Assembly (NCBI GenBank): GCA_944548615.1
Contig: OX155972.1
Span: 6,702,975-6,766,974 of the forward strand
DNA length: 64,000 nt
Source of the DNA: Micropterix aruncella
Taxonomy: Eukaryota; Arthropoda; Insecta; Lepidoptera; Micropterigidae
Reading direction: 5' to 3'
This document shows, piece after piece, positions 17,201-38,200 of the stretch (position 1 is the stretch's first letter; every line of letters starts with the position of its first letter). The notes beneath the pieces were generated by a model. The model was not told the DNA's origin. It saw nothing but the letters and a program-made list of their open reading frames with translations, and made no database searches. The position numbers and the translations under genes were made by a program.

Positions 17201-20200
17201 ATATATTATTACCAGGACCTTTCATGGAATTTTGTCCTGCGTATTTAGTTAGGACTTCCTTGCGGATGATTTTAATATTTGAATGAGCCGTATTTTGTTT
17301 CAGTGTCTGTTATTTATGTCTGTTATGGGGTGGCTCGAGCGTGTGAAAGAGGAATATAAGCTTCTAAGAATCGATCTCTCGCGAACAGCCACCCATATTA
17401 GATAATGCAAGTGATAATTCGTACATTTCCCCGCTCATGGCAACGTGCCATTAACTTATTTTACGAATTATTTACCTTAAATCTACGTTATTTATATCTA
17501 TGGCTTATTCTATTCGGGCGGACAATTCTAATCTAACTAGTTTGCTTATTGACCTGCGATAATTTTTTCCGTCGACTTTTACATCTACTATCCTGACAAC
17601 ACCTGTTTTGTCAGGGTAGACTTCCGTTACTATAGCGCGAGGCCATCTTCCTCTTTCTAGAGAGGGATCCAATATTAACACCAGTTCCCCCACCCTTAGT
17701 GGAGGTTGTACCTCCTTCCATTTAGGTCGAGAGACTAGCATAGGTAGTACTTCTTTAGACCACCTATTCCAAAAAGAGTCAGCTAGAGCTTGGGTCTGTC
17801 TCCACTGTTTACGGTTACATAAATCTCCAATGGTAAATTTACCCATAGCGGTGCTGTTAGAGTGTCCTAACAAAAAGCTTTGCGGCGTAAGTGGCTCCTG
17901 GTCTCGACTGTCTATAGTAATGTGCGAGATAGGCCGCTGATTAAGGATTGACTCCACTTCAGCCAATAAGGTCTGCATCATTTCCACAGAAGGCGCTCTT
18001 TCTTTCAATATGGCGTACAAAGCTCTTTTGGCTGACTTAACCATCGATTCCCAGCAGCCGCCATGATGGGGAGAAGCAGGTGGTATAAACCTCCAGTCAA
18101 TCTGGTCGTTACTTAAACGTTCACGGATACGTTCATCGTCAATCTCTGAAACGACCTTCTTCAATTCGGCACTCGCACCTTTTAGATTAGATCCATTATC
18201 TGACATTATCACCCTTGGTTTGCCCCGCCGGGCTATGAATCTTCTTATCGCTTGTATTGTCGAATTAGTAGACAAATCATATGCTAATTCAATGTGAACC
18301 GCTCGTGTGGTTAGACAAGAGAACAACACGCCATATCGTTTCTCCACTTTTCTTCGTATAGTCACCTGAACCGGCCCGAAGTAGTCTACGCCTACGGCGT
18401 TAAAACACCTCGTATGATGCTGCAAACGTGACATCGGGAGTTGTCCCATCAACGCTGTGACTGGTTTTGCCCTTCTCATTTTGCACAGCATACACTGGTA
18501 TATAAATTTTTTGACCGTTTGACGGGGACTAATTAGCCAGAACCTCTGGCGTAGGCTGGCCAATGTCGTTTCAACCCCGGAATGAGCCATCTCCTCATGA
18601 GTTCTTACCACCAGTAGTTGTGTATAGCGATCCCGGCCGTCAAGTATTATGGGATACTTAGTGTCGTGTGGTATACCCGGCGCATTTGCGATGCGGCCGC
18701 CTACTCTTATTAAGCCCCGCTCGTCTAAGTACGCATTTAAACCTATCAAACGGCTATTCCTAGGTAAAGTCCCTTTCACTCGTATAAGTTCTATTTCTTT
18801 CTTAAAAGAACGACTCTGCGACTCCTTTAATAATATTATTTCAGCGCTGGCAATGTCTTGTCCGTTTAAAATGCAGTTATTCGTGGCACCTCTACATAGT
18901 TGAATAAACTTCCTAACGTATGCGGCTACGCGCAATAATCTGCGATGTTGGGAGAATCTCGCGACATCTATTGTGCTCGTAGGTACAGCGTGTAGCGCAA
19001 ATACCGCCAATGGTTTATACTCGAGGGATATCTTATCCTTTTCCCCGGGTTGATGGGGAACCTTTGCCGGCCATACCTCTGGTGGCTGTCTAAGGTATTC
19101 AGGACCATTCAGCCAACGGCTCTCGGGCGAGAGGTCAATTTTTGACTTCGCTCTCGTAGCTTCATCTGCAGGATTACTATTTCCGCTTAACCATCTCCAC
19201 TCCTCCGGGGTAGTCAGTTCGTCCAATACTCCCAGACGGTTAGAGACAAATTGTTGGTGGTCGGAGCTACGTGAACGTATCCACCAAAGTACGTTCATCG
19301 AGTCTGTCCATAAAATCTTTTCATGAAATTTAATTTTGTACTCGCTAGTGATTTTTTTCGCTAGTTCGGCGCCTAATAGTGCTGCTGTCAGTTCTAAACG
19401 CGGTATTGTCATTTTTTTTAACGGCGCGACTCTGGTTTTACTTGCGATAAAGGATGTGGTCGGTTCTTCGCCTGGTCTGGCTATTCTCATATACGCGACA
19501 GCGCACATAGCCTCTTGAGACGCGTCACAATATATGTGTAATTGTCTATTTTCGGAGGGATTCTTTGTTACGCCGTGATAGCGTGAAATCCTTACGTCCT
19601 TCGCCGAGCGAAGGGCATTTATCCATTCACCCCAACCTTTGAAAATATCTTGTGTGACCTCCTCATCCCAGGCTACACCGCTGGTCCACACCTTTTGCAT
19701 TAGAATTTTGGCTCGGATAGTTATTGGGCTTAATACCCCGAGTGGGTCATAAATTGACATTACTACCTTAAGAGCCTCTCGTTTCGTTGGCACTCTCTGG
19801 CCCGTTTTTAAGGCGTCATCGAGTTTTTCTAACCTAAAATTAAATGTAAGTTGGTCACTTTCTGGCAACCATTCTAACCCTAAAAGCCGTTGAGAGCTTA
19901 TCTCTCCTTTCTCCAGAGCAATATTATGGGTAGCTTTCCTTTCTTCGGGTATTTCATTCAAAACGCTTTGATAATTAGACGCCCAGCCCTTTAAGAAAAA
20001 AATCCCTTGTTGATGGATGTAAATTATGTTTTTTATCACGTTACGAGCTTCTTCTATTGAAGAAGACCCGAAAGCAAGGTCGTCCATAAAGTGATGGTCT
20101 GTGATAGCCTCCACTGCTAGAGGGTACTGATTCTTGAAACGTTCAGCGTTTTTATTTCGGATATAGAGGGCTGATGTCGGGGATGACCGAGAACCGAATA

Positions 20201-23200
20201 TTAAAGAGGACATTTTCAGGATACGAGGTTCTATATCGCGCCGATATCCCCGCCAAAGGAACAACTGACTATAGGTATCGTCCTCGATCACCTTAATACG
20301 CATGAACATGTCCCCAATATCGGCGGTAAAAGCCACCGGATGCTCGCGGAACCTAAAAAGTATACCTGTTATGCTTTGATTATAGTCTGGCCCCGTTATC
20401 AGTAAGCTATTTAGAGATACTCCCTTTACGCTAGCAGCAGCGTCATGCACGATCCTAAGCTTGTTTCCTTTGGCGGCGCTACAGACACCCAAGTGTGGTA
20501 AAAACCATATATCAGTTCGGCCGGCTAATTTGGAAGGGTCTACTTCTTCGGCGTAACCTTCTGCTAAGTACTTGTCCATTTTCTGACAATAAGCGTCTCC
20601 ATAAGTCCGATCTCTGTCCATTTTTCTCTCGACGGCGTGAAGTCGAGCTAGCGCCATAGGTCGGCTATCAGGAAGAACACGTCTGTCATCTCGCCAGAGC
20701 AACCCCGTGTGCCATACCCCGCCGTTTAACGAAGTAGTGGATTCCAATAATTTTTTAGACCTTACCGAGTCCGCAAGTTCTCGCTTTTTATTCGGCCAGT
20801 CTTGCTCTAATCTGAGGTTTTCCTCGAGTAATCTCTGAAGAGACGCGTCATTGCTACCGCTATCACTTAGGCAGAAGCTATGTAATGCGTCATTTTGCCT
20901 ATCTACAGATACTCGTCCCACTGGAACCCAGCCCAGTAGTGTTTTTGACAACGATAATTCGTCATTAATGCGCCTTAATCTGCGTGAAACGATTAATTCC
21001 CAACAATTAGCCCCGATTAGTAGGCGCGGTTGGACATCTGATATTTTGTCGACTTTCACCGCAGTCAAAGTGTCAAAATCAGAGGCGGCCGCCGATAAAT
21101 TTTTTAATTTCGGAAGGTTTAACGCCGCAATACTATAAGCCTGCACGTCGAAAACCTTACGGCCCAATTCCCCCCTTATTTGAAACGAGACTGTTTCAGC
21201 CCCTTTAGAAGAAGTTTTCATACTTCCTATACCACATACCTCCATATTGGTGGGAGGCCCTCTAATATTCAGCTCTTGCGCGACTTCGCGGTCTATTATA
21301 GAGACCGTCGATCCGCTGTCTAAAAGCGCGTAAACTACCTTTCTCCCCTTTGGTCCTATTAACGTTATCGGTAAAACTTGCAAGAGGACTCTGTTGTTGG
21401 CTACTGTATGCGCGACAATAGCCCCGGTCTGTGTTTCACCTTCGGCTGTTGCCGTAATTATCTCGGTTCCGCCGAGCGCCGCGTCCGCGGCAGTAAGTAA
21501 GAAATGATACTTAAATCGAGGAAACCTTTTATAGGCTGGGCAGTTTTTCCTGCCGTGCGAAGGTGCAAGGCATTTAAAGCATCGCTTAAGTGATTTTACG
21601 ACTCCCCAGCGAGAGTCTAGGGAAAGTTTTTTAAACCTTTCGCATTTGCTGAGAAAATGATCGCCGGTACAATTTGGGCATTTCATACGAGACTGCTCAG
21701 TCATGTTAAGAACGTAATTTTTATGATTTTGCTGTTTATACTTTTTATCGCGCGCTACTACTTGATTTTTTCTACCGCTGTCTAATGGACCTATTCCCGC
21801 ATCTTGCGAGTCTATCGCTAGTGTTTCTAGCCAAGATGCGAATCGTATGATAACCGGTTCGTCTGGTTTACCCTTTCCTTTATCTCCTAGCCACAATGTT
21901 AATAAGTTTTTTGGCAACTTCGCTACAAGAGAACCTAAAGGTTCTGGGTTCCATAGGTGCTCAATCCTATTTACTGATTTTACTGTGGCCACCAGATTCT
22001 TAACTTGGCAAGCAAATTGCAACAATTCCTCTGCTTCTATAAATTCAGAGAGGTCCCTGGTTTTACGTAAATCAGCTAGTGTGCGCTGAATAATTACATT
22101 TGGATTTCCAAATAACGTCTCTAATGTTTTCATTATTTCGCCAACGTTCGCAGGGGATAAAAGTAACCCTGAAACGCAATCTCTTGCTCGTCCGCGTATC
22201 GCGGATTGCAAGCGAAGTAAGTTTTGTTCGTCATTCAGACCTATAACTTCGGTGGACTGGTTAAAAATCGATTTAAAGGCTAAAAACTGAAGTGGATCTC
22301 CACTAAAGGGTGGAAGTTCTTTGTTATATTGCGGCTTCGAGGAGGCTATTGAAATTACTCGACATACCTGGCTTATTAATTTTTTGCTCGCGCTGTCATC
22401 GGACCCGTCTCCTGTGCTGGAGCCAGCGGCCGCGGCGGCGTCTGTGGCCGCCGCGTCCGCTTCGGTCGCGATTTCGCCGCCCGCTGCGCGATGCGCTGCT
22501 CCGTGAGGTGCCGCCGCGCCCGCCTCGAGCCGCATCCCCTCGTGCGCCGCGCGATGTGTTGCTCCGTGAGGTGCCACCGCGCCCGCCTCGAGCCGCATCC
22601 CCCCGTGCGCCGCGCGACGTGTTGACCCGTGAGCTGCAGCCGCGCCCGCCTCGTGCTGCATCGCCTCGTCCGATTCTTCTTCTCTCCTGCCGCGGTATCG
22701 CTCTTCATTTCGTGGTTTTATTTGGTCGGGTTCACTATATGAAGTCAGCGGTGCTTGCGTCTCTGCCCACAGCGTAGTACGACCTGCTGTTTCTTCAAGA
22801 TCGGCGTAACTTCTTGTCTCCCATTCTCCGCTTTTTTCTGAGTCGTAAGCTTCGGAAACTACGTCTAACACTCTAAGTGCGTGCTGACGGTCTGCTTCTA
22901 GCATCTGCAATTCAGCTTCTAAATCTGCATGTTGCACTTGAATCGCAGCCGCCGCCCCTGCCGCCTCCGATCTGCGTTTTGCCGTCGCTATCTCTTCGGT
23001 CGCACGGAGTTGTTCCCTTTGCGTTATCGCCTCTGATTCCAATTTTTTCTTTTCCGCGGCTACCTTTGCTTGTTCTCTGGTGACCCGCCTCAGTTGTTCT
23101 GATGCTTCTTTCACTTCCTGAACTCTTTCACTCCTCCTGCTGCTTTGTGACCAGGTCCGCCTCGATACGTTCGATTTTTCTGCGGTCGACTCCATCGTAA

Positions 23201-26200
23201 AATTTATTTTTCAAGATTCTTTTATTTATTTTTCATCCGGCTCGAAGGACCACTTATGGTTATAAAATCCATCAGTTATTTTCCTGTGAGTTTCTCACAC
23301 TGCTGAAGGGTGGTTTTTGTGGACTGTAAATGTTATTTACCTTCGCGTTCTCTCGTTCTTCCTGGCCGCCGAGTAGTCTCCCGTATCTGGTTCACACTCT
23401 ATTAGATGATCACACAGTGAAAGAGTTTATTTCAAAAAACCGTTTATTGTCCCTCAATTTACTCGTGAGTTACAGTATACACTTAAATTATGCGCGCGAG
23501 TACGAGACCAGCCAAGGGCTGCCGTATGTACAACTATTATCCCGCCGCTTAAGGGTCGTTCATTCTCGACCTCGGTATTTTTGTGACTGTTCGATTTTCC
23601 AAAATCGTTCACTAGCCTCGCTAAAGCCCCGCCACTCTAACCCGTGATTGGTTAAAAGGCAATGGCGGCGGTAAGAGACCGGCCTACTGAGGGTTAAGGG
23701 GTGTGGCTTAGCGAGAGTACATATTATTCAATCAGGCTTAAATTTTTAACTTAAATTAATCTCACCTTAATTGAAGGTAATTTTCTATAATATCTATTAC
23801 TACTACATTATCATTAGGTTTATAGCGAAAATATGTAGATTAAACATTAACAATACATCATATTTAGTACTTAAAATTCCTTCGAATAGCTAGCAAAATT
23901 ATAAGTATTTGATTTTATCCAAGCTTTCAGTCGAATAATTAATAGCCTCCTAATTACCTCAAACATTGCGATTATTTTGAGATTACCACATTTGTTTTAA
24001 TATAAGAGGGTTGCGCGAGCGGCTTGCCGCGTTTACGATTTTTTGTTATCGGTCGACACCCTCGATATATCCACTGCGAGAAATGACAGGCTGATAATTA
24101 ATTAGGGGTCTTCGGCCCTTAAAGACGGCGATATATTATTACCAGGACCTTTCATGGAATTTTGTCCTGCGTATTTAGTTAGGACTTCCTTGCGGATGAT
24201 TTTAATATTTGAATGAGCCGTATTTTGTTTCAGTGTCTGTTATTTATGTCTGTTATGGGGTGGCTCGAGCGTGTGAAAGAGGAATATAAGCTTCTAAGAA
24301 TCGATCTCTCGCGAACAGCCACCCATATTAGATAATGCAAGTGATAATTCGTACAGTAGGTATTCAAACACCCGACATGTATTTTATTATTTTAACTATA
24401 GAATATTGTATTGTCATCGGAACTTTTTATGTATGTAAAATTTAAAAATAATTGGTTATGTAAAAGTTCGTCAAAATCGAGTTACAAAAGTAGACCTACC
24501 TTCTGTCATCGTACTGAGAAACAAATGAAGTTCAATTAAAGCCATAAATAGTAAATACAACATTTTTGTACATATTATTGTTTTTGCTACGGACAATAAC
24601 GAATAAATAATTGTTTTTACACCAAATCAAATAATGAACTCGATAATATACTTGAGATCATAGTTTTAAATTATAATATGAATATTTTAAAATAACTTTA
24701 TTTATAATTCTAAAACTACTAACCATAACTTAAAAAGTAATGTTTATAGTATCCATGCAATTTCTAGGACTTTCATTTGCCAGCGGTCAGTGGAATTATT
24801 TGGGAATAAATGTTTTCTTTAATAAATTTTACATGACATAAATCACGGTGTTATTTGTTGCTCTTGATCTCTTTCAGACTTTTGAGCTAAATTTTATATG
24901 GACATTATTTCTGAGTTGCCGAATATTTCGTGTCATCTCAGAAAGTCAACCTGGTGAGTTAAAATTGTAAGGTATGTTGACATTTTTGAATGTAAACTTT
25001 ATCTTTATTATTGGTACTTAACTATCACTATCAAACAATCGTCATTGAGTACCTGTCTTATATTCGTATAGTAACAGTAAGTTGTATTTTTGTTATCTAC
25101 TTAATCAAGATAAGAATTATTATAAAATTATGAAATAACTAAATCTCAAAATATCACGACAATAATTACTGGTAAAATATTTTGTTTACAATGATGAAAA
25201 ATAATAATCAGTGGACTAATAATACGCTAGTGTTCGTAAATATAGATGAGTACTATAAGTAACCCTAATGAAAATTTATTTCTTAAAACGTTGACAATGA
25301 TTCTAATACGTTAACGCAAGTCCAAATGTGACACGGTGTCTAATTAAAAAGGACAAATTTAAAAGAAATGATTGACGAAGTAAGAGTTGTTGCAGATTAA
25401 AGTTTTGGAAACAGAGTACAGACCCTTGGTCCCAACGCAGGGATATCGATGCTTCGACCTTCATAGGGCTTCGTCATTGTATCGGTCGGTCGCGTGGGAA
25501 GTGACAAACAGATGTTAGACATTACGATTCGACTTGAGTAATCTAAAAAAAGGAGTGGCCTTTTGAATCGCCTTTTGCAGGTATATTATAGTCAGTTACT
25601 AGAAGCATGGCTACTAATAAATTAGGCTCTAAAATATGAACGGTGTGATTCTTTTACACCTGTTTTATTTATTTACGAATGATGGTTTTACACAAAATGT
25701 GGGATAGTTGCAATCTATAAGTAAAAAAGTACCTACCCAGGAAGTACCTAGGTACAATTTTTTTAATTAATTATATATTTTATACTATATTCCCTTATTA
25801 ATATTATTAATAATAATTACACTTATATTTTGACTATACCTTAATTTTATTGGAAAATACCTAGGTATTTTTTTTTCAAAAATAGCTATAATGATATTGA
25901 TGAAATTTTTCGAAAATTATATTTTTATGGATAATCATAACACACCCTTACTAATTACTTTGAGAAAACTGTTTCTGGGTAGTGTTTTGTAGCTACCTAG
26001 CTATTCAACCAAATTGGTATTAAAAATACGAAATAAATGGGTATATAGTTGGGGATAAAAAGGGATTTTACTAGGTAGATTACCTAGTAAATCTTTGTCT
26101 TGGTAGCCGTTATGTTTAGTTTCAAGATTTCAGAGGCATTACAGAGAGTCTAACTAAAATAATATATCGATCGTTTACAAACACCCTATGTTTTGAGTCA

Positions 26201-32200: not shown

Positions 32201-35200
32201 TTTGAGCTAGACAGCTATCCTAACCCTATCACAGTACCTCACCACCCATTCACTCCTCCTTCGAAGTCATAGAAAACCTGTGCGCTTCAACATCCTATGT
32301 ATTCGCCTAATTTATCTCTGTGTGACTATTTCCTGTCCTCGAAAGTCAAACTGGACATGAAAGGTATGTTCTATGATAATGTTTACACAAGTCCAAGAAT
32401 AGTTGTACATTTTTATTCTTATTAAAGGATTTAAAGCTAGCACATAACATTTTCATCTGCTGAAAGATAAAAAAATTAAATCCGCATTAAATCTATACTA
32501 ATATTATAAAGAGGTAAAGTTTGTGAGTTTGTGAGGTTGTAGGGAGTAATCTCTAGATCTACTGAACCGATTTTGAAAATTCTATTACTAATAGAAAGCC
32601 ACATTATTTGTGAGTGTCATAAGTTATATATTAATCCGAAAAATTAAAATAATTTTTCGTGGTAGTCGAATTTGCAAAGTAAGTCGGAGAAAAAACGGTC
32701 GAATGAAAATGTTTCTTACGAACGCTGCCTTAACGATGAGAGATATATGATTGAGTTCTAGAGAAAAGTTGTAGAGCTTTATAATGACTACAAAAAAGTC
32801 AGCAACAGCATATGTCTAACTTTTATATTTTGTAAGTCACAACAAGTAGTTTTTTTATATTAAAAAAATAATTTATCAACAATTATCAACATTTATGATA
32901 AAAGTCATATTAATGTCATATTATCAACAAATATGAATTCTTATCAAAATAAGTAAATTCATCGTCTCAAGTGTTTATTATAATTATTTTATCACAATGT
33001 CGTTGGTATTTTGTCGTGTCCACTTTGTTAAAGAGCCAGCCACGTTGAAGTCGATCGCCGCTGCCAAGGTAATTGATTACGAATTATGGAGAAAATAGTA
33101 TGAAATTGATAAGTATGCATTTACGCAATGCGCTAACACCAACGTTACGATTATTTATAGCGCTCCTGAAGAATATTACGAAGAATATCCGAAAGTCACT
33201 ATCGTTGAAGCTCGAGCTCGTCAAAATCAATTCAACGCCTCGATTTTTCTACTTTGGCCATATCGTTATGACGTTCTGCTGTGTCTGCCGTACCAACCGA
33301 TCTTTACGTGCGATTGTCCGCATGTACGAGCTCGCGGACATTGTCGCAGACAACTCTTTGAATAAAGCGAATACATCAGAAATCCAAAATGGAAGAAACG
33401 TCAACCCTGCAAGTGATGTTGGAGAACATTTACCGTCAACACGAAACGAATCATTTGATAAATCATCCGGGCTTTTGGATGACCATTCTGTCAGCAATGA
33501 ACGTGGAGCTGACGTCGAATCTCGATACCATTCCATGGCATGGCTTGCACAAAATTGTGCAGAAGGTATGGTGCCGAAAATCGAAGAAATGGGAGGTTGT
33601 TTCCTGCGATACGTTAATGGCCACCTTATCAAAGGTTCCTGGAGATATATTGCAGATGTCATTCTGTACGATGATGTGCAACACTTACGAAGCATTGTTC
33701 GCGTCCTACGTGACTATGGAAGAGCCCGAGGAAATGGAATGTTCGGCTATAGCGTCGTACCCGGACACATTCACATCATCCACGACTGCTGCTATTCAGG
33801 ATCCCACTGCCGCGACGTATTCAGGAGGCAAATTCAACCTTTTCCGCAGTTCACCCGCTGCGACTGGTATGATGTCTTCCAATATCTGTTTCTCCGAAAA
33901 CGGGGAGATCGTGAAATATGGGTGCGAGGAGAAGGTTGGCAAGTACCGCCTGACTCCAAATTGGTACGATGGGAAGAAGAGTATAGGGCTTGGGGATCGC
34001 TGGTACGAGTCGAAGATAGCCGGAGCAATTATGACTGTATCGGACACAAAAGATGTAAGTCACAAAAGATATGGTAGAGAAATTATTACTTCACCTCACG
34101 ATGAAATTTATGGCAAGAGGGCCAAAGAAAATGGAAAATACTCCTATGTCAAGTCGAAAACGAAAATGGATGAAAAAACCGTTGTAAATCAATGTGTATT
34201 ACGAGCGCAATATCAACCAAAAATTTCCACCATAAAGGAACCCCTGAAAACTATTGGTCAAGGTGTACCGATTGAACCCCTGAAAACTATCGGTCACGGT
34301 GTATTATTACAATTAACTATAAATCAATACTGATAACACGCATTTATTAAGTACAACAAACTATACAATAATATTAATAACGAGCATTAATTAAAGCATT
34401 CTAAATAAGGCGGGAGAGAGACACAAAAAAGAGTAAGAATATCCGCAGAATTATTTTTATTTTCCTCCAAAACTTTATACATCCTGAGTACTACCTACTT
34501 GGTCGAAGAGACACAAAGAAGAGGAAGAATATCCGGAGAATAATTTTTATTTTCCTTCGAAAATTTTATACATCCCGAGTACTTGGTCTATCTTCTTCGA
34601 AGATAATCGACAACCACTCCCTACAACAGCCCCCTTCGGGGGACTTTCCCATAGTAATTCACCAGCCTGACGTCACCAAACATGACGATTCTGACCCACT
34701 TGTAGGTTGGTACATAATGGCGCGGTTCGTAGAAGTTATTAGCGATGTTCCTCGATGGGAGGACTTTTCCCTTTTACTGCATATGGGTCAGGACCTAATT
34801 CTTTGCATTGTGTCACAACGGACATCACAACGGAATGTGTCACACTGGAAAAATATATAGCACAACGGAATTCATAAAGGCATACTCAGAGTATGCCAAG
34901 ATGAACAACAAGATGAACATCACTTATTGCTTCAAAACAAAGAAAAACATCCGAATTTTGCAATGACACGCGGCGACCTTCAACACGCTCCCTCGATTGA
35001 CAGATAAATGAAATGGCAGGAGGATTCCTGGGGGATTTAAAATCTGTTGCCAGCTTGAGGACTAATGTTCCCACAACAAATAAACAATGAATCGGCTGTC
35101 GCTCACCGCTAATTGCGACAATATCGCGTCGCACAACTGATGTCACACAACGGAACGAAATTTGGGACAAGCACAATTTGTTTTTTAAATAATAAAATAT

Positions 35201-38200
35201 AATGTTTTAGCAAACTTATATGTCGAAATACTGTTAAATGCATAACAAAGTATATTATTAAAGTATACCGCAAATGCTGCAGTGTTTTCTTTTATTTAAA
35301 ACTAACCAAGGTGTGTGAAAAATCGGAATGGGGACACTTAAAAGTTGTATGGGAGAAAAAACGATCGTAATTTTGTTTTTAATTTAAAAATGTTTTTAAT
35401 GCTAAGTAATTAAAATGTTAATCGACTTTTAAATGTAAAATACACTGAAAATTAAACATAAATTAAACACAAACAAGTAATTTGGGATATTTTAATATTT
35501 AATTTTTGCTTTCAAACAAGAGGGACATTAAGTTCTGAAAAGAATTTGGTCCTGACCCATATAATTTCCCTTTTACTACATAAATGGTTAAAGAGATAAT
35601 ACGACATAGGCATGGAACCGCGTCCGTATCTCGGGTTGGAACTCCTGAAAGACAATATATTTTCGTACCAAATAATAACATTACATCTAATACAGAGAAG
35701 TTTTGAAAAATTAAAATAAACATAATTTATTCAATCATAATCATTTCATTCACTCATTTGAAACCCGGTAATATAGCCAAATTGGCGTGCAAATACATAC
35801 ATACATATGCAGTAAAAATATCTTTTGGCAGTCAGGAACTAAATCATAGCCCTCAGTACTAACAGAACCACACTCATAATTTCATAACAAATAAAAATGT
35901 TTACCGCCCAACGAAGTGGGCAGGGGTCAGCTAGTCTTGATTATAAAAATATATGTCATACCACTTCTATTTCCAGCGTGAGGCATGGACACTGCTTCTT
36001 TGTAAGTTTCAGTTTGAAAGATTTTGCATTCTGTTTCAATTTGACAAGGGATTTTGCAAAATTTGCTGAAATTTAAAGAAAATCGTTAGATGTTATACAA
36101 TACAATACAATACAATTTAGTTCTGCTCCAGTAGGTAGGCTTTCCTACACTTGGATGCGTCTTTGCCTGTAAAATTTTAAATAATGTAATTAATTAAAGA
36201 ATATTAACTATCATGATATAAGTAGTTGTGGCAATATAAATAAATTTTAGTAAATTATAATTGGTTTGAAAACCATTGATAAATAGAAAATTATCTAATA
36301 ATCAAAATTGCTGATCAAAAAAAGAGCTCAATCTGTAGTAATAATAATCAAGGCAATAATATGATGGTCATGAAAATAGATAAGCGTATATTAAAAATAT
36401 CTAAATTTAAATTAATTATCAAATCTAGCGATATAGCGGTCGTCGATAAAAATTAAAATTACGCTCTTTGGCAAAGTTGATTATCATGAATTTTCTGTTA
36501 TTTTTCATTAGGATGCTCTTGGAATAAGAATTCAGCATTATCCAAATCTCTTAAGTCATATACTGGATTCTTGACTAGTCCATTAAATAAGATTTTTTGA
36601 ATTGGTTCTCTCCAAGACTTCTGATATGTGTTGGGACCTTATTATAATAACACAGGCTTTGGTGAAGGAAACTGTTGCGCACTTTGCTAAGCGTGTGCCG
36701 ATTTAGATGTAGATCAAATTTATTTCTATATAGAGAGATTTATTTCTGTTATAGAGACCTGTGATGTGAAACTCTTGTTACCGTGGGGTTTATAGACTTT
36801 CTTGTACACAATGAAATTTCTTTTTTTTGTCTTCTCAGTCCAAGTATATGTAGGATGAAAGAAGCTCCGCCCTAGTTAGGCACTACCATTGATTATGTAG
36901 CATATTAGATTGATTGACATCATACTACAATTTAGCAACCAGGATTTTAATACGAAACGAAACATGTAGATGGCCCTCATAGTTCCAAATATTTAATAAT
37001 CTTCCATTATTGTGTTGGCGAATGTAGTAATCTGTATGGCGACATTCGTGGTATAACAGTACGGCAGTGCACTGTAAATGCCGCTCTAAACCAGCCATTC
37101 AATATAAAATATTAAAATATTAACTAAGGATTTTTTAAATCACACCTATTATTTTGATATGGTTTATATAGTGCTAGTTTCAATATGTAATAATTACGCA
37201 AATTAATGCTGAGATGTGGTCTCTAAGCAGTATAAATTCCCTGAAAGTCTCGGATGCACAGCCCTCCGTCCAGATATAAATCTTTACTCTCTATCTCAGA
37301 ATATGGCCCTTATTGTAAAATTAAATGTTCCATGGGAATCACATATCCCAAAAGACCACGAGCACAAATTAAATAAATACCATGATCTAGCAAATGCCAT
37401 CACCCGGAACAGCTTCACTGTTCACCTTCACGCAGTGGAAGTTGGCACTCGTGGCCTGCTAGCCAAATCTCTGTTTGCCCTCTTTAAAGATCTTGGTCTC
37501 GGGAAAATAATCAACTCCTTCCTAGAAAAATGATCTAAAACTGCAATTTCCACATTTCAAATTTTATGGCTTCGAAGGGAGAGTAAATGGGCGGTAAGGT
37601 AAATACTCGCATGCGGCAAGACAGCTGTCCTAAACCTACCACAGCCGGTCGTTAGTCCGGAATCCACCGCTCACCCCCAGAAGTGTAATAATATTATGAG
37701 ACTTCGGTCGGTGAATTCCATGGCAGCTCTGTTTGTATTTTATTTATATTATTTATAGACGGCATTCTATTTCTCTCTATTATTTCTGTGATGTAATCAG
37801 CCTACATAAAAATGTGATAGATGGCACTAATAATTGAATGTCATTATTGTTATCATTGATTAAATTATTGAGTTTTTAAAGTCAATCAGTCTGTTATAAA
37901 AAAAACAGTCATTATTAATGTTATCATCCCCTAGAGCCCCAATTGGCCGATATCGGCCACAACACAATTCAGAGTGAATGCCCCATGTTAATTTTATTTT
38001 AATTTAATTTGTTTTATTTTATTATGCTTTATTATGTTAATATGTTTTATTTCTATTATGGTTTGGCAGTAATTAATGTTTTGGTGAGACAGTGTCATAA
38101 TTCAATTTTTTTACTTATTTTTACTAAAATTTTTTGGGACATCAACTTGTCAATCGGCTGAGGGGCCGAGGCCTGAAGGGTTAAAGATAGCTAAATAAAA

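Follow-up and report, generated by a model that had tools for sequence, protein, structure and literature searches.

Endogenous densovirus elements of tapeworms, as described in PMC6880638, occur as many broken NS1 and VP copies, with remnants of ITRs, within a single host genome. In Sf9 cells transfected with JcDV DNA, junctions between an NS1/NS2 fragment and a VP4 fragment, near an ITR, arose repeatedly (PMC5978394). Parvoviral genes repeated in a genome are described for parvovirus-like transposable elements (PMC3198968), and fungal Helitrons of Pleurotus are described with herpesvirus-like, caulimovirus-like, and retroelement domains inside (PMC4289320). The lepidopteran non-autonomous Helitrons Hel-2/Lep1 are described with TC and CTAG ends, a 3' hairpin, and A and T flanks (PMC4344730, PMC4038834). 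Among the papers listed by full-text searches of open-licence literature, none was seen to report a densovirus inside a Helitron.

The locus described here lies in a window of 64,000 nucleotides (the whole stretch of Micropterix aruncella DNA that was analysed) and is an endogenous densovirus fragment nested in a non-autonomous Helitron; its mobilisation is not supported. A host genome with many broken NS1/VP copies and remnants of ITRs is common to this case and the tapeworm elements described, but here the Helitrons are of lepidopteran type, one copy lies inside a Helitron, and the ITR tips occur in both orientations. The Helitron has the ends, 3' hairpin, and flanks described for Hel-2/Lep1, a likeness drawn from described ends and not from a reference sequence. 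A scrambled NS1/NS2 and VP4 joint close to the ITR is shared with JcDV in Sf9, where, however, the DNA was transfected and the NS and VP4 fragments had opposite orientations (PMC5978394), whereas the window holds a natural copy of another virus with both on one coding strand. Virus-like sequence within Helitron ends is shared with Pleurotus (PMC4289320), but here it is a fragment of an ssDNA virus with its own ITR. Unlike in the parvovirus-like transposable elements as described (PMC3198968), no ITR-bounded unit with fixed ends on both sides was found here.

The Helitron and the site of the viral insert

The Helitron extends from 32492 to 35934. Its 5' part (32492 to 32977, plus strand) is alignable with other copies and begins with TC at 32492, preceded by A at 32491. 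Its 3' part (35559 to 35934, plus strand) has the hairpin GCCCA-ACGAAG-TGGGC directly inside the 3' end and the terminal CTAG, which ends at 35934 and is followed by T at 35935. The 3' end had 9,831 matches (4,900 + 4,931; up to two mismatches) in the assembly of 1.08 Gb and 742 contigs, and the reversed control had none. With TC/CTRR ends between A and T, a 3' hairpin, and many copies with the same end, the element is a non-autonomous Helitron, and the earlier note, which described a Helitron with both ends visible and A and T as flanks, was right in this.

Exact 3' ends number 33 including that of the window, and sequence was compared for 28 of the 32 others. At 21 of these 28 loci there are matches to both halves of the window Helitron (in L015 and L016 the match is to a neighbouring copy), and at seven to the 3' part only. 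Empty copies are about 0.72–0.88 kb long, with a mean of 756 bp (n = 10). Alignment to them resolves the window copy into 884 bp of Helitron and two inserts, at 32978–34762 and 34785–35558, and the 22 bp between these (34763 to 34784, plus strand) are a Helitron remnant that matches empty copies.

Empty copies run continuously across the site of the first insert. The site has no target-site duplication, and 8–9 bp of Helitron are missing there in comparison with copies such as L019. The right edge of the insert is the tip of an ITR hairpin, and the left edge is a break in the NS leader. Similarity of L030, L048, and L052 also stops within a few bases of the ITR tip, while L069, L071, and L092 continue into the opposite ITR arm, and viral ends are not always at the tip. 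The earlier note had named copies lacking the block, together with ITR boundaries of the block's own, as evidence against its reading; the empty copies are there, as is an ITR boundary on the right, but not on the left.

Densoviral sequence in the first insert

The first insert (32978 to 34762, plus strand, 1,785 bp) holds real densovirus sequence. From 32978 onwards it is matched by L030, L032, and L046, and ITR matches end near 34762. The frame at 32998 to 33362 (plus strand), read by translation and found in other viral copies, has one internal stop and no Pfam or protein match (the query is short, and proteins much above 150 residues were not candidates); by its position it is a putative NS3. 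The amino-terminal half of NS1 follows at 33361 to 34166 (plus strand), with the HxH motif (HIHII) and a frameshift at about 34050–34077, and is cut before the helicase. Protein search with frame 33073–34077 gave four proteins, 44–49% identical and with E values of 4e-40 to 1e-52, of which one has Parvo_NS1, and the HxH signature is invariant across five aligned sequences. For the window half itself, neither Pfam nor the solved structures gave a match. Sister copy L034, with 95% DNA identity over 281 columns, continues into the NS1 helicase (PF01057, E 3e-14), and a parvovirus-type NS1 is recognised through this copy and the protein homologues.

An NS2-like frame at 33389 to 34075 (plus strand) overlaps NS1 and loses its normal frame at the frameshift of NS1; the listed ORF continues in another frame to 34330. 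Frame 33389–34330 found three NS2-like proteins (E 1e-44 to 1e-49), one of them named 'MAG: ORF4 [Parvoviridae sp.]'. The frameshift affects both frames, and the match to viral copies continues past it to 34166. No relative was found in the viral_contigs or phages databases. Densoviral origin, as proposed in the earlier note, is confirmed by the NS1 relatives, the one with Parvo_NS1 among them, and the NS2-like matches agree; of the NS3, NS1, and NS2 arrangement on one strand that it proposed, NS1 and NS2 stand and the NS3-position frame matches nothing in the databases. Domestication is not needed to explain the largely open NS1 and NS2 frames, as at 2% change they would stay free of new stops with a probability of 0.44 and 0.49, respectively, and at 6% change with one of 0.09 and 0.12.

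The right part of the insert, absent from the earlier note, contains a capsid piece and an ITR. The VP4 fragment of 110 bp (34164 to 34273, same strand as NS) matches Pfam Denso_VP4 at E 1.6e-4, which is below the Pfam curated cut-off, and the Galleria densovirus capsid at E 0.0017. Longer VP frames with Denso_VP4 above the cut-off are present in L049 and L050, and the Denso VP4 capsid gene is represented in the window as a fragment only. The densoviral ITR (34303 to 34762, plus strand) has an internal repeat at 34417–34492 and 34507–34583 and is assigned as such because the same sequence precedes NS, inverted, in L030, L032, L046, and L048. Its last 40 bp, the tip at 34723–34762, occur in either orientation among copies. 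In 23 tip readings, where a complete hairpin such as L069 is readable from both sides, seven shared the orientation of the window tip, 14 had the opposite one, and two were unclassified. Flip and flop of the replicating parvovirus terminus give both tip orientations.

The NS and VP pieces at C24:27.474–27.484 Mb lie on different strands, whereas those in the window share one strand, and therefore the window fragment appears to be rearranged and its VP4 piece displaced. The source would have been an ITR-bearing densovirus, probably of the ambisense type. In L030, L032, and L046 a TATA-like box stands immediately before the point of the left break, and a retroposed NS mRNA was considered; the ITR tip at the end of the block and the displaced VP piece within it led to its rejection.

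Densoviral copies elsewhere in the genome

DNA search with 32990–34340 gave 29 matches, merged into 19 places including the window. The ITR search gave 67 matches and added 27 places (40 of 785 candidates scored), and the ITR tip pattern was found at 25 genome sites, one of them new (L092). After merging, viral lineages are present at about 47 places, a number that may leave out truncated copies and older ones. For complete tips, which number 25, the 785 first-look candidates do not translate into hundreds of ITRs, with the same reservation. Together with the ITR tips in both orientations, these places are a natural record of integration and scrambling of densovirus DNA.

Two of the places, the window and L071, are inside this Helitron family. 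The other 45 of the 46 places besides the window are not, as judged from 0.8–1.5 kb of flank on each side; Helitrons whose ends lie farther apart because of a longer insert could escape this check. In L037, L038, and L066 the Helitron adjoins the viral part and does not enclose it, and in L092 the Helitron match is 30 bp only. L071 (C46:6840266-6842539) is a 170-bp ITR-only fragment in a 906-bp Helitron, at another position than in the window, and the empty copy L004 is continuous at its insertion site. L071 is an event separate from that in the window. Besides these two, no fetched tip-bearing place is inside this Helitron family. In L023, about 3 kb outside its Helitron, 90 bp resemble the ITR weakly, at 77% identity.

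The nearest viral relatives of the window block are L034 and L035, with K2P of 0.015 (271 bp) and 0.016 (249 bp), respectively. Other copies of its own lineage differ from it by about 0.04–0.08 and older ones by 0.11–0.24. The Helitron parts have K2P of 0.05–0.10 to L018 and L027, the fullest siblings in a sample of 28 fetched out of about 9,800, and nearer siblings may exist. These divergences fit a Helitron that was older than the viral insertion it received.

Origin of the nested copy

Starting from what was observed directly, namely the sequence identities, the boundaries, junctions found once, and many viral copies outside this Helitron family, the nested copy very probably arose when rearranged densovirus DNA was integrated, by end joining, into a non-autonomous Helitron already in place, with the composite not copied afterwards. 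The densovirus, presumably through germ-line infection, would have left many scattered fragments in the genome. One rearranged linear fragment, consisting of the NS half, the VP4 scrap, and the ITR, would have been ligated into a break within the Helitron; cellular end joining is suggested for this step by the junctions alone. That the Helitron was there earlier is suggested by divergence from the 28 fetched copies, not by an orthologous empty site. Of the two options offered in the earlier note, integration of a densovirus into a Helitron is the better one, and a virus picked up by the Helitron is not supported.

In the latter option, the viral block would have been captured during transposition or repair as filler DNA, and the composite then mobilised to the present site. 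Around the block, the Helitron retains both of its ends between A and T, and pick-up of foreign DNA is reported for Helitrons, as described in PMC4289320. Against this, the left and right virus/Helitron junctions had one match each in 1.08 Gb (up to three mismatches; none in reversed controls), and hence no second copy of the composite and no donor copy were found in the assembly. Gene capture with spread would be seen as at least two copies sharing block and junctions; with a single match for each junction, capture and mobilisation by the Helitron were rejected. The expectation that same-end copies share the viral block was also disappointed, as none of the 28 fetched copies (of 32 other exact matches) carry it. 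The insert is internal to the Helitron and not at an end, and the virus is outside this family at 45 of the 46 other places; with junctions found once each, this speaks against the suggested spread of viral sequence by a rolling-circle transposon. Capture is very improbable, and the striking claim is corrected to a virus nested in a transposon, which is not the same as capture.

A preference of densovirus DNA for Helitron targets, for example if NS1 or Helitron Rep, both HUH nucleases, nicked Helitron DNA or held it open, would be in agreement with two independent integrations in one family. The share of this family in the genome is roughly 0.69% (9,831 ends × 756 bp), an approximation that gives partial copies full length and omits the more diverged ones, and at least two nested places out of 47 including the window have a P of about 0.04. 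However, the window was selected for nesting, and the fair figure is therefore the one without it: one nested place observed among 46 against 0.32 expected, with P(≥1) of 0.27. The window and L071 also differ in Helitron position and junctions. What is left is a weak case for non-random targeting, and such a preference is, if anything, slightly less credible than capture. It is likewise a long shot that ends of the densovirus and this Helitron family join beyond chance through HUH nucleases acting on single-stranded DNA, with the window and L071 as products of a targeted reaction; if they did, moving Helitrons could carry viral ITRs. The pairing of Helitron Rep with NS1, pointed out as curious in the earlier note, is a coincidence without a demonstrated role. 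An assembly chimera would agree with junctions found once, but the assembly has similar fragments in many other positions and the block diverges from every compared relative, which makes it the least probable explanation, close to negligible. The chance test, in which viral places are set against the genome share of Helitrons, is applicable to other genomes.

The second insert (34785 to 35558) is a 774-bp MITE with the TIR GGGTCAGGACC and a 4-bp TSD ATAT, and it was not mentioned in the earlier note either. A viral nature of this segment was ruled out, as it is a separate repeat unrelated to the virus. The MITE also inserted here, 22 bp from the viral block and either before or after it in time. 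It was found at 39 further places with 94–97% identity (40 of 119 candidates scored), and three of its sister copies have the TSDs ACAT, ATAT, and ATTA.

Helitrons of the window family

A second virus-bearing Helitron of the window family lies at positions 804-1709 of locus L071 (G000:C46:6840266-6842539 in the M. aruncella assembly). Its insert is a densoviral ITR only, 170 bp long, and occupies a different position within the Helitron than in the window copy. On contig C36 (G000:C36:1091592-1433055, loci L009-L014), the Helitron 3' end was found six times, all exact, on one strand, and spaced 38-135 kb apart, suggesting that a larger block was duplicated there.

Densoviral sequences elsewhere in the genome

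Loci L037 (C46, 12.63 Mb) and L038 (C51, 24.33 Mb) are two copies of one unit of at least 2.6 kb, sharing one set of rearranged viral pieces, with 94-97% identity in the main blocks. Contig C24 has three densovirus-rich regions at 22.41, 27.47-27.49, and 29.71 Mb (L032, L035, L036, L042-L045, L048, L049, and L091), and a DNA search of the genome revealed NS1 pieces repeated about 0.6 kb apart in one of them. These regions may be a piRNA cluster. Viral or ITR matches at L036, L039, L074, L078, L079, L083, and L086 are more diverged (72-80%) and point to older densovirus lineages in the genome. Two ITR repeats of about 85-90 bp are present in the window (34417-34583) and more in L066 and L075; judging from these sequences, their number seems to vary among copies.

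Other mobile elements of the window

The 774-bp MITE inside the window Helitron (34785-35558) has the TIR GGGTCAGGACC and a 4-bp TSD. It was recognized at 39 further genomic places with 94-97% identity when 40 of 119 candidates were scored. At 17508-23210 on the minus strand, a frame of 1,901 codons without stops encodes Peptidase_A17, DUF1759, DUF5641, and integrase domains of BEL/Pao type, and is a long and open retrotransposon polyprotein.
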